Positions 7,856 to 41,164 of a stretch of 41,164 nt of DNA are shown piece by piece. Position 1 is the first letter of the stretch, and each line of letters starts with the position of its first letter. The DNA lies in assembly GCA_019084485.1 (NCBI GenBank), contig JAHRFU010000037.1:1-41164 (forward strand), read 5' to 3'. Both the position numbers and the translations under genes were made by a program. The DNA is from Desulforudis sp. (lineage in GTDB: Bacteria > Bacillota > Desulfotomaculia > Desulfotomaculales > Desulforudaceae). The notes below the pieces were generated by a model that saw nothing but the letters and a program-made list of their open reading frames with translations, was not told where the DNA came from and ran no database searches.

Positions 7856-8680
7856 TTAACCGTTGAGTCGGAACCCAGCTGGTATGGCTATCTTCGGAGT
7901 TCGGGTACTGATAAGGCCGGCGATAAACTGCCCGCGATGAATGGGCGTAGGGCCGAACCTGATGATATCCTCGCAATGCTCCCGGGTACCGTAGCCTTTA
8001 TTGCGGTCGAATCCGTACTCCGGAAAGGCCTCGTGACACCGAACCATTAACCGGTCTCGCCAGACCTTGGCCAGGATCGATGCCGCGGCTATTGAAGCAC
8101 ATTTAGCATCGCCGTCCACCAGAGTAGACTGGGGAATGTGGATTCCCCGTATCTCCAGATTGCCGTCGACAAGAAGCCTCCTGGGCGGCACCGACAGTAA
8201 GCGTATAGCTCGGCGCATTGCCAAAAAGGTGGCCCCCAGAATGTTGTAACGCTCGATCTCGGTAACAGAAGCCACTGCAATCGCCCAGGCCTCGGCCTGA
8301 TTGCATATCTCTGCGGCCGTCTGCTCGCGGCGGGCCGGGGAAAGCTTCTTGGAATCATTCAATCCGGGGATGAATCTCTCAACCGGTAGAACCACCGCAG
8401 CTGCCACCACCGGACCGGCAAGCGGCCCCCGCCCCGCCTCATCCAGCCCGGCCACAGGCCCGACCCCCCGTGCGGCAAGCATCTCTTCGCGCTCATACAT
8501 CGCTCGAAGGCGACAGGCCTCAACAACCTCACATTCCAAGCGCCTGGACAAAACGTGAAAGAACTCCCTGGCACCAATTCGATCATCGTTACGCAGGGCG
8601 TCGTGAAGCTCCCGGTCAACACCAGCAGTATTTTTGATCAGCCGACCGATTTCGGCTAGGGTTAGCTTGGTTGTGTCCAT
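7856..8680 (-). CDS. rnhB: Ribonuclease HII
   Basis: RNase HII removes RNA from RNA-DNA hybrids and initiates excision of misincorporated ribonucleotides. Visible signatures are AGLDEAGRGPLAGP (two catalytic acidic residues), SKKLSP, ASILAKVWRD and GFDRNKGYGT. Starting at ATG 8680 (MDTTKLTLAEIGRLI) gives about 274 residues, including the helical N-terminal extension of about 70 residues usual in Firmicutes. The frame stays open to 8929, but that extension would read through the separate plus-strand element at 8746-8986 and has no family resemblance. An in-frame ATG near 8720 with an AAGGTG Shine-Dalgarno is a possible alternative start. Confidence 0.93.
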   Translation of the reverse strand: MDTTKLTLAEIGRLIKNTAGVDRELHDALRNDDRIGAREFFHVLSRRLECEVVEACRLRAMYEREEMLAARGVGPVAGLDEAGRGPLAGPVVAAAVVLPVERFIPGLNDSKKLSPARREQTAAEICNQAEAWAIAVASVTEIERYNILGATFLAMRRAIRLLSVPPRRLLVDGNLEIRGIHIPQSTLVDGDAKCASIAAASILAKVWRDRLMVRCHEAFPEYGFDRNKGYGTREHCEDIIRFGPTPIHRGQFIAGLISTRTPKIAIPAGFRLNG

Positions 8681-8745
8681 GAAGCATAATATTCTTCCCC
8701 TGAAAGATAAACCCTGCCACATGTAGCACACCTTACGTTGGATAG

Positions 8746-8776
8746 TCGACATACTCAAAAACACCCTAAGCATAAT
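8746..8776 (+). promoter_or_regulatory. Putative promoter of the plus-strand intergenic RNA
   Basis: TCGACA (8746-8751) and CATAAT (8771-8776) are separated by 19 bases on the plus strand, divergent from rnhB. Transcription would begin close to the first hairpin (8783). The match is moderate and the spacing one or two bases long. Confidence 0.35.
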
Positions 8777-8822
8777 CGGCGGGGGTGTACTCTGAGGAAC
8801 TGCAGAACAAACGAAAACACCC

Positions 8823-8876
8823 ACACCTGGAAGGTGCAGTCGCGCTGAGGGTATTGCCGGAACAAACGACAGGGAG
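8823..8876 (+). repeat. 54-bp dispersed repeat, copy 1
   Basis: It differs from the copy at 40997-41052 only by one inserted G after the CAGT at 8837-8840 and by AC against ATT just before AGGG. It contains the hairpin CACCT-gga-AGGTG, the string CTGAGGGTATTGCCGGAACA and a terminal AGGGAG. Both copies lie outside genes and are followed, 7 bases after AGGGAG, by a start codon. Confidence 0.9.
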
Positions 8877-8947
8877 TTGCGCAGTGAGCCGCGGATCAGA
8901 GTCGACCGCCTGTCTGAGTGAGCTAACAATTTTCATCATTCATGGTG

Positions 8948-8986
8948 CCGGTCGATAGACCGGAATAGGGCGACTGCCCCATTTTT
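8948..8986 (+). terminator. Rho-independent terminator of the plus-strand intergenic unit
   Basis: There are two consecutive hairpins, CCGGTC-gata-GACCGG (8948-8963) and GGGC-gact-GCCC (8968-8979), followed by CATTTTT. The T-run is on the plus strand only, so it does not serve rbgA, whose stop codon is just beyond it on the other strand. Confidence 0.6.
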
Positions 8987-8987
8987 C

Positions 8988-9821
8988 TTAGGCGTGGGGT
9001 TCGTCCAAGGTGAAGCGTCCCAGGCGTCCATCCTGAAACTCTTTGAGGAAAACAGCGGCGGTCTTAGATCGATCTGCACGCCCCCCGTGAAGCAGCAGTC
9101 CACGTTTAATCCCGATTAGATCCAACAGGTCACCGCTCTCTCCGGGCAAAGCCCGAAGATCAAACCGCTTCTTTAGAGCCGTCGGGGCATTAGCCAGGAG
9201 CCAGTTCAAGAGCCAATGGGCGATTTCCTCGACATCGACCACTTCCTCCCGGACGGCACCGGTCACCGCCAGCCGGTAACCGACGTTGGGATCCTCAAAC
9301 TTGGGCCATAAAACGCCGGGAGTATCCATCAATTCGATATTTCGCCCTACTCGAACCCACTGTTTTCCGCGAGTCAGTCCGGGGCGCTTGCCGGTGCGGG
9401 CGGACTTCTGGCCGACGAGACGGTTAATAAAGGACGATTTACCCACGTTCGGTATCCCTACAACCATCAAACGGAGCGGGCGTCCCAGTACCGCTGTGCC
9501 ACTCCTGGGTACAGCCTTCTGTACCGCGGCGGTAACCGACCGGACGCCGGTCCCTCTTATGGAATCCACCTTAAGAACCACGTGTCCCCGATCGTTGAAC
9601 ACGGACTCCCAACTGCGGGTGAGTCCGGGCTCGGCCAGGTCAATCTTGTTCAGCACGACAATCCGGGGCTTCTTCCCGAGGATTTCATTGACCATCGGGT
9701 TCCGGCTACTGGACGGAATGCGCGCATCCAGAAGCTCAAAAACGGCGTCACAGAGCTTGAGCTGCTCTCTGATCAGCCGTTTGGTCTTGGCCATATGTCC
9801 CGGAAACCACTGTACACTCAT
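8988..9821 (-). CDS. rbgA: Ribosome biogenesis GTPase RbgA (YlqF)
   Basis: RbgA is a circularly permuted GTPase that drives late maturation of the 50S subunit. The G motifs appear in permuted order: G4 NKIDLAEPG before G1 GIPNVGKSSFINRL, then G3 DTPGVLWPK. The opening MSVQWFPGHMAKTKR is diagnostic. Length is 277 residues, normal for the family. It sits in the usual position between lepB and rnhB. Confidence 0.95.
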   Translation of the reverse strand: MSVQWFPGHMAKTKRLIREQLKLCDAVFELLDARIPSSSRNPMVNEILGKKPRIVVLNKIDLAEPGLTRSWESVFNDRGHVVLKVDSIRGTGVRSVTAAVQKAVPRSGTAVLGRPLRLMVVGIPNVGKSSFINRLVGQKSARTGKRPGLTRGKQWVRVGRNIELMDTPGVLWPKFEDPNVGYRLAVTGAVREEVVDVEEIAHWLLNWLLANAPTALKKRFDLRALPGESGDLLDLIGIKRGLLLHGGRADRSKTAAVFLKEFQDGRLGRFTLDEPHA

Positions 9822-39849: not shown

Positions 39850-39935
39850 GCCACCGGAGTGAGTAAGACCGATTTTTGATCAGAATGAGCCGGAGAAAGC
39901 GTAGATTAATCCGGCTGGGAATCAAGGAGGACCTT

Positions 39936-40943
39936 ATGCGATACTATCTCGGAATAGATGTCGGGAGCGTTACTACCAAACTGGTACTGATCGACAGTGA
40001 CCTGAATTTGCATTATTCCAGTTATCTGCGTACCGAAGGCGGTCCGATCAACGCCATACAGCATTCTTTCAAGGAATTATCCGACGAAATAGGTGATATT
40101 AAGGTTGCCGGAGTTGGAACTACGGGAAGCGGGCGCCGTCTCGCGGGGATCATGGTCGGCGCAGATGTCATCAAGAACGAGATTACTGCGCACGCTATGG
40201 CCGCCAGACATGTAGAGCCCAAGGTACGCAGCGTGATCGATATCGGCGGTCAGGATTCCAAGATAATCTTCTTTCGTGACGGCGTACCCATCGGTTTCAA
40301 TATGAACACCGTGTGTGCGGCCGGGACCGGTTCGTTCCTTGACCATCAGGCCGTACGTCTGGGCATTCCGATCGAGGAATTCGGCGACTATGCGATCCGT
40401 TCTACCAGCCCGATTAAGATAGCGGGCCGCTGTGGGGTTTTCGCGGAATCGGACCTGATCCATAAGCAGCAGATGGGTTACAAAAAGGAAGACCTGATCG
40501 CGGGTCTCTGCCTGGCTCTCGTGGGAAACTATCTGGCCAACGTCGCCCGGGGGCGACAAATCGAACCCGTAGTCCTCTTTCAGGGTGGAGTCGCGGCCAA
40601 CGTAGGCATCCGTGGGGCCTTTAAGAAGCGGTTGGGTATTGACATCACTGTTCCCGAGAACTTTAAGGTAATGGGTGCTTTCGGTTCTGCCATCCTGGCT
40701 AAGCGCAATGCCGAACGGTACCGCCGGGCCACAAATTTCCGGGGGGCGTCCCACATTGCCGGGTTTACCTGTAACCCCCGCACCTTCGGTTGCTCCGACT
40801 GCCCGAACAACTGTGAAGTGAACGAGGTGTACATCAGCGGTGAGCTGGTCAGCAGGTGGGGCTCCCGTTGCGGAAAGTGGTACAACCTCAGCGTCTCCTC
40901 AGATGGCCGTACCGAAGAACGTGAAGCCCCGTTGAGTGTGTAA
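39936..40943 (+). CDS. BadF/BadG/BcrA/HgdC-type ATPase, dehydratase/reductase activase
   Basis: Such activases hydrolyse ATP to push an electron into 2-hydroxyacyl-CoA dehydratases or benzoyl-CoA reductases. The 335 residues (ASKHA fold) show YYLGIDVGSVTTKLVLID, GVGTTGSGR, DIGGQDSK, and the two cluster-cysteine sites NTVCAAGTGSF and AGRCGVFAESD. Unlike short HgdC it has a C-terminal cysteine-rich tail (CNPRTFGCSDCPNNCEV and SRCGKW), as seen within long fused activases. ATG 39936 is set by AAGGAGG; the upstream frame is not conserved. It is cotranscribed with the DUF2229-type gene. Confidence 0.85.
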   Translation: MRYYLGIDVGSVTTKLVLIDSDLNLHYSSYLRTEGGPINAIQHSFKELSDEIGDIKVAGVGTTGSGRRLAGIMVGADVIKNEITAHAMAARHVEPKVRSVIDIGGQDSKIIFFRDGVPIGFNMNTVCAAGTGSFLDHQAVRLGIPIEEFGDYAIRSTSPIKIAGRCGVFAESDLIHKQQMGYKKEDLIAGLCLALVGNYLANVARGRQIEPVVLFQGGVAANVGIRGAFKKRLGIDITVPENFKVMGAFGSAILAKRNAERYRRATNFRGASHIAGFTCNPRTFGCSDCPNNCEVNEVYISGELVSRWGSRCGKWYNLSVSSDGRTEEREAPLSV

Positions 40944-40996
40944 AAAAGGGGGCAGGCAATACTATTTTGGTAAAGTGGCCGACCTTGAGAAAACCA

Positions 40997-41052
40997 ACAC
41001 CTGGAAGGTGCAGTGCGCGCTGAGGGTATTGCCGGAACAAACGATTAGGGAG
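40997..41052 (+). repeat. 56-bp dispersed repeat, copy 2
   Basis: It is nearly identical to 8823-8876: the hairpin CACCTGGAAGGTG, the shared string CTGAGGGTATTGCCGGAACA, AAACGA, and the final AGGGAG. Here too a start codon (ATG 41060) follows AGGGAG after exactly 7 bases. The first hairpin and the terminator seen around copy 1 are not obvious here. Confidence 0.9.
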
Positions 41053-41059
41053 ACTTGTA

Positions 41060-41164
41060 ATGACAATACGCCTTCGGGGCTTTCGAACTCTGAAAAGCTT
41101 GTATTTTGATACGAATCTAGGGATGTCTCAATTGGACTGTGTCCAATCAAAAAATGCGCAGTGA
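41060..41164 (+). CDS. Short unrecognised reading frame downstream of repeat copy 2
   Basis: ATG 41060 after AGGGAG opens 34 codons ending in TGA at the last base of the window; the product begins MTIRLRGFRTLKSLYFD. I recognise no family. It may be a small leader-type ORF, the decayed start of a mobile-element gene, or chance. Confidence 0.3.
   Translation: MTIRLRGFRTLKSLYFDTNLGMSQLDCVQSKNAQ

Follow-up and report, generated by a model that had tools for sequence, protein, structure and literature searches.

Introduction

MITEs are short, non-coding elements with terminal inverted repeats and target duplications. They occur in many intergenic copies, and folded transcripts have been predicted for them (PMC10969869). 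BOX elements of Streptococcus pneumoniae are dispersed, intergenic repeats with extensive predicted RNA structure, and their trans-mobilisation by an IS has been proposed (PMC3049150). The Correia (NEMIS) elements of Neisseria are small inverted-repeat elements that lie in transcribed regions, where their transcripts form long hairpins (PMC2649163).

Here we analyse a 41,164-nucleotide stretch of Desulforudis DNA (the window), in which a core sequence occurs twice. We conclude that the window very probably contains, in two defective copies, a MITE-like mobile element of the non-autonomous kind, which is most likely mobilised in trans and whose fold would serve the element itself. Like MITEs, the element is short, non-coding and intergenic, has terminal inverted repeats and target duplications and reaches high copy numbers. 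Unlike MITEs, it is conserved in its interior and not in its arms, with supported base pairs common to many families; also unlike MITEs in general, it had no partner IS in the places examined. With BOX it shares small, dispersed intergenic repeats, extensive predicted structure and a proposed trans-mobilisation. BOX, however, was described in pneumococcus and is modular (boxA-boxB(n)-boxC), whereas the present element, compared by description, has a single fold of ~164 nt found in many families. It resembles Correia/NEMIS as a small inverted-repeat element but differs in size and host group, and the target duplication of Correia/NEMIS differs from the 4 bp seen here. As in REP/REPIN systems with RAYT, the genome from which the window comes has five Y1_Tnp matches and REP-like palindromes; unlike REP/REPIN, the structured element of the relatives is bounded by long terminal inverted repeats and generates duplications of 4 bp. 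HEARO and other mobile-linked Rfam families are likewise structured RNAs in a mobile, multi-copy context. In contrast to these, our element had no match in Rfam 15 at E ≤ 3, and no associated nuclease ORF was seen. On the best reading, the element is unusual for its phylum-wide conserved fold. To our knowledge, most descriptions of small palindromic repeats in bacteria concern one species or genus, and a literature search found no report of such a family in these bacteria.

Results

An insertion between rbgA and rnhB

Copy 1 interrupts a lepB-rbgA-rnhB row, the signal peptidase gene (lepB) adjoining. Copy 2 lies at the end of the contig. The features of both loci are listed below.

7856..8680, minus strand: rnhB (ribonuclease HII), flanking gene (Pfam PF01351, E 8e-41)
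8722..8987, plus strand: rbgA-rnhB intergenic insertion, ~257 bp longer than in the same-genus relative (ends approximate)
8722..8814, plus strand: upstream part of the insertion, with a second, diverged left-end-like motif CTGAGG..AACAAACGA (8792-8814)
8815..8878, plus strand: left end of copy 1, comprising the inverted-repeat arm and the 5' strands of helices P1 and P2
8879..8923, plus strand: first interior part of copy 1 (GCGCAGTGAGCCGCGGATC...CTGTCTGAGTGAGC), stopping at an internal deletion (compared with complete copies, e.g. L002)
8925..8980, plus strand: right tail of copy 1 (TTTTCATCATTCATGGTGCCGG...GACTGCCCC) with the REP-like motif (91% identity, E 3e-15)
8988..9821, minus strand: flanking gene for a ribosome-biogenesis GTPase (Pfam PF01926, E 5e-18), which we take to be rbgA/ylqF
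39876..40943, plus strand: gene for a BadF/BcrA-type CoA-enzyme activase, directly upstream of copy 2 (Pfam PF01869, E 3e-42)
40987..41052, plus strand: left end of the element in copy 2
41053..41164, plus strand: ~90-nt long-form insert of copy 2 (non-conserved short ORF) and first interior bases

In all seven family relatives (G001-G007), rbgA is directly adjacent to rnhB. The gap between the two genes is ~50 bp in the same-genus relative G001 as compared with 307 bp in the window, and both flanks can be aligned. Between stop and start, G001 reads ...CCTAAG..GGGTTTACC..GGGGAAGAATA. The adjacency in the relatives and the short gap in G001 indicate that the element arrived in the Desulforudis lineage of the window. 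Exact loss of the insert from the relatives would explain the same pattern less simply.

The initial annotation had described positions 8746-8986 as an independent plus-strand transcription unit, beginning with a promoter-like pair and ending in a terminator. Such a unit was not borne out: within 8650-9050 we detected nothing resembling a sigma-70 promoter, whichever strand was read, and no terminator-like site on the plus strand, the sole such site being on the minus strand. Other details of that description proved accurate. The CACCT/AGGTG hairpin, the GGGTGT/ACACCC pair and the two CTGAGG...AACAAACGA motifs (8792-8814 and 8845-8869) are all present at or near the places given for them. Further copies of the 8792-8814 motif were sought in the same genome and none was found; the upstream half of the insertion (8722-8822) is unique there.

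The recurrence of the core about 32 kb away was also confirmed, the copy at 40987-41052 being 91% identical over 64 positions (E 2e-18). The ORFs that follow the core had been called unrelated, a view that we could not uphold, as both downstream sequences enter the same repeat interior (GCGCAGTGA...). Both window copies do have AGGGAG followed after 7 bases by a start codon, as had been pointed out, but this is no property of the family, the common short form reading AGGGAGTATAGATCAAAAATG. We considered whether the short ORF that follows AGGGAG encodes a leader peptide and rejected this because the ORF shows no coding constraint.

Both window copies are defective or incomplete. Copy 1 has lost its 3' half: GAGTGAGC (8923) gives way to the tail at 8925. 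Copy 2 is truncated inside the repeat, where the contig stops. Neither was matched by our covariance model R2, and their membership in the family therefore rests on similarity to complete copies. The conserved structure suspected in the initial annotation is real, but it spans the whole interior of ~164 nt and is visible in complete copies only.

A dispersed repeat in the Desulforudis genome

In the genome of the window (2.34 Mb in 137 contigs), our search matched the left end of the element 40 times and the right end 42 times. The left end of copy 1 has ~40 matches, mostly at 85-94% identity, and the repetition of the core is thus beyond chance. Many copies are located at contig ends, which is where repeats that interrupt an assembly should lie. 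Comparison of the copies yielded an element of ~290 bp; complete copies range from ~290 to ~420 bp, those invaded by a group II intron excepted. It consists of a left arm AACACCTGGAAGGTGCAGTGCGCGCTGAGGGTATTGCCGGAACAAACGATAGGGAG, an interior ...GCGCAGTGAGCCGCGGATCAGCGTCGACCGCCTGTCTGAGTGAGCG... and a right arm ...CACGTACGTGTTTGTGTAGGCAATCCCTCAGGAAAGCGCACAGCACC, followed by a REP-like tail. The core is the left end of this dispersed mobile repeat. Of the three suggestions in the initial annotation (a structured leader, an sRNA or the end of a small mobile element), the last is thus the correct one.

About a dozen copies in this genome are of a long form that carries the ~90-nt insert. Among 13 copies, the ORF of the long form has 13 synonymous versus 73 non-synonymous codon differences. 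The changes are distributed 43/56/33 over the three codon positions, and there are frameshifts and stops. Short (~290 bp), with an unconstrained ORF and in multiple dispersed copies, the repeat has in these respects the properties of a MITE.

Two copies contain the 5' end of a group II intron at the identical place (L033:2262-2423 and L016:1684-1767; Rfam RF02005). At three further loci (L007, L035 and L036), the contig terminates in a long palindrome that surrounds the element, with inverted host sequence on either side; these may be assembly artefacts or genuine fold-back duplications.

Five matches to Y1_Tnp (RAYT) were obtained in this genome. The RAYT genes (L095-L098) each lie between inverted short repeats of their own, e.g. 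GGGACAGGCTACTTTTT / AAAAGTAGCCTGTCCC. Since the repeats flanking RAYT genes also occur inside several copies of the element, the elements nest. Several copies contain REP-like palindromes internally, in addition to those of the right tail. The REP-like motif, AACnATTTTCATCnTTCGTGGTGCCG-loop-CGGCATGGGGGACT, is conserved in several families of the order (L049, L051-L055, L057 and L060), where it is either solo or at one end of the element (the right end in the Desulforudis genome, the left end in family f14). The motif of the right tail also stands alone in other genomes, as solo copies in relatives.

Ends and target duplications in relatives

In two families of the relatives, f1 and f16, the outer arms of the element are terminal inverted repeats (AG[A/T]TTC..CTGAAAAA), as in MITEs; other arms are found elsewhere. 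An exact 4-bp target duplication is present in 16 of the 23 copies from f1 and f16 in which both ends could be recognised. The expected number is 2.07, and the maximum in 2000 re-pairings was 7. In the other seven copies the duplication is not exact, and lengths of 2, 3, 5 and 6 bp show no excess. Insertion sites read YTA-NN-TAR, the duplicated 4 bp being ANNT. The evidence for this fixed-length target duplication comes from the families f1 and f16; the composite of the Desulforudis genome has REP-like ends.

Derivatives of 58 bp and ~135 bp that have no P3-P6 core carry 4-bp duplications as well (L211, L212 and L214), which indicates that the arms suffice for movement. Two of them have a nearly identical internal deletion, and the derivatives themselves therefore appear to have spread.

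We looked for an autonomous partner near end-like matches in G003 and G090 and encountered ordinary genes only. Loci of PF05598, a transposase-associated family, had no such ends in the few genomes and the one family examined. The outcome that the initial annotation had set against its own reading, all copies being ends of an annotated insertion sequence, did not arise in its strict form, since we encountered no annotated insertion sequence that has these ends.

Distribution and neighbouring genes

Homologues were collected by DNA similarity within the same family and then with the covariance models R1 and R2. Model R1 had matches in 31 of 150 relatives. Model R2 had matches in 35 of 113 genomes of the class and, in a phylum-wide sample, in 35 of 398 genomes; the best E-values were 5e-43. 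The distribution of the element is thus patchy and phylum-wide. Carrier genomes usually hold many copies each and, judged by gene content and relatives, are probably Bacillota of the Desulfotomaculales type. The absence of the element from most genomes of the same order indicates that it is not essential. Phage, plasmid and viral collections yielded no homologue. Exact matches to the core in Macrococcus and in three viral contigs were dismissed as chance, the surrounding sequence being unrelated. In one genome, G090, at least four copies are arranged in tandem and repeat every ~229 bp (L144, G090:C45).

Clustering of the neighbouring genes at 56 loci revealed no conserved neighbour; the top shared cluster, a generic ABC ATPase, was present at 5. 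The window had no match above the curated gathering thresholds of Rfam 15, and element-bearing loci of several families had none even at E ≤ 3. The initial annotation could not assign the core to a known riboswitch class, and this stands: the element is no known riboswitch or ribozyme family. Its proposal of a structured leader does not agree with these results, nor with the arbitrary intergenic places in which the copies lie. A c-di-AMP riboswitch is located near one copy in G005 (L047:1815-1960), coincidentally as far as seen.

A covarying fold in the interior

The interior of ~164 nt folds as a single strand into a long rod composed of the helices P1, P2, P2', P3, P4 and P5 and the capped hairpin P6. 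The helices are parted by conserved internal loops (TTCAAAGA / ACAAnTATAA; GAGGAnAAG; CTGTYTGA / CGAGTT), in which the unpaired TTCAAAGA, GAGGAnAAG, CTGTYTGA and CGAGTT show strong conservation. Between families, the helices vary in sequence while their pairing is kept. Thus, AACAAAC/GTTTGTG of the Desulforudis genome is GGTCAC/GTGACC in relatives, GCGTCG/CGACGC is GCGGCG/CGCCGC and GCGCCGG/CCGGCGC, and GAAC/GTTC is GAGC/GCTC.

To quantify this, we counted double changes in a sequence-only alignment of 50 copies. They were present in 35 of 41 pairs and amounted to 325 double-change cells, as compared with 129 ± 10 after shuffling and 53-101 with the partners slid. A first phylogeny-aware test on 50 redundant copies gave 2 significant pairs, both within the structure. 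The test was then made against a tree-simulated null with 73 non-redundant copies, which had been gathered by the covariance models; significance was determined on a plain MAFFT alignment. Of 13,366 column pairs tested, seven were significant at E < 0.05, and all seven lie in the proposed helices (P1, P3, P4 and P5). At E < 1, the corresponding number was nine out of nine. Folds of single copies had z values of -6.1 and -6.3.

Within lineages, the rate of change was 7.4% for paired and 7.6% for unpaired columns. The decay of individual copies is thus neutral-looking. This equality suggests that single copies decay freely, while the form of the lineage keeps the fold. The ratio of G-U to A-C events, which a fold acting as RNA should raise, was 35:22 in the helices (p = 0.11); the outer arms gave 55:62.

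Discussion

The element occurs in many dispersed copies, with 4-bp duplications and a target preference in f1 and f16, a covarying fold and no fixed gene partner, and the site orthologous to that of copy 1 is free of the insert. Several explanations other than a MITE-like element were considered. A covarying fold with conserved loops, and the AGGGAG-7-start arrangement of both window copies, would suit a structured cis-regulatory RNA, that is, a riboswitch or attenuator leader reused many times in the genome. We regard this as highly improbable. No conserved downstream gene or function emerged from the 56 loci, Rfam gave no match at E ≤ 3, the short ORF is not conserved and the 3' half of the fold is missing in both window copies. 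Moreover, a related site lacks the insert, and the 4-bp target duplications and the random neighbours already contradict this explanation. It is also very unlikely that the core marks one end of an ordinary, annotated insertion sequence. The inverted-repeat arms and target duplications would be expected of one, but no transposase lies between the ends in any copy seen, and complete copies measure ~290 to ~420 bp, intron-invaded copies aside.

Two other explanations concern the interior. It might encode a stand-alone, trans-acting host sRNA, domesticated and riding in the MITE, whose genes were copied by transposition. The interior is conserved over many families while the arms change, and derivatives that have lost it still move, so something other than mobility keeps it. 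Such an sRNA is nevertheless unlikely, given that paired and unpaired positions decay equally and that most genomes of the same order do not have the element. Alternatively, the conserved structure could act at the level of DNA: the transposase, or proteins of replication and repair, would recognise it as a hairpin, single-stranded or cruciform, in the manner of REP/RAYT or attC. The element as a whole amounts to a single long palindromic rod, G-U is not clearly preferred over A-C in the helices, and the Desulforudis genome has both REP-like ends and RAYT (Y1_Tnp) genes. We consider this explanation doubtful because conserved internal loops of such asymmetry are what folded RNA typically shows, because the transposition of derivatives without P3-P6 argues against recognition of the core, and because the 4-bp duplications are unlike the known products of RAYT or integrons.

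We therefore favour a MITE-like element. An intact copy would consist of outer terminal inverted-repeat arms, which are genus-specific, and the folded interior of ~164 nt. Most likely, a transposase, probably of the DDE type, recognises the arms in trans, inserts the element at YTA-NN-TAR and duplicates 4 bp (ANNT). The composite of the Desulforudis genome may have a different mobiliser, since its ends have become REP-like and the genome contains RAYT genes. The fold would serve the spread or tolerance of the element itself and not a host gene, and selection on the fold is best supported as acting at the level of the element. Our preferred guess is that folding or processing of the transcripts that contain the rod would keep the harm done by insertions into operons, like the window copy, small. 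Such an effect has been proposed for the Correia elements, which are processed by RNase III. Some observations count against the MITE-like reading: no autonomous partner with the same ends turned up in the places examined, the evidence for duplications comes from f1 and f16 and not from the composite with its REP-like ends, seven of the 23 duplications are inexact, and deletion derivatives transpose without the fold.

We tentatively entertain a further possibility, namely that the element is a phylum-wide mobile lineage with a true functional RNA core. This RNA, and no protein, would be what was conserved as the lineage changed its arms and its mobilising enzymes. Such a core would promote spread or tolerance, for example by processing or anti-polarity in operons or by recruitment of a host or transposition factor.

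The pairing of the core is kept over many families while the ends change, which suggests that the fold itself is under selection. What purpose a folded MITE core serves is now a directly testable question. The covariance model can be used to annotate hundreds of unannotated repeats in the phylum that break assemblies and lie in operons.
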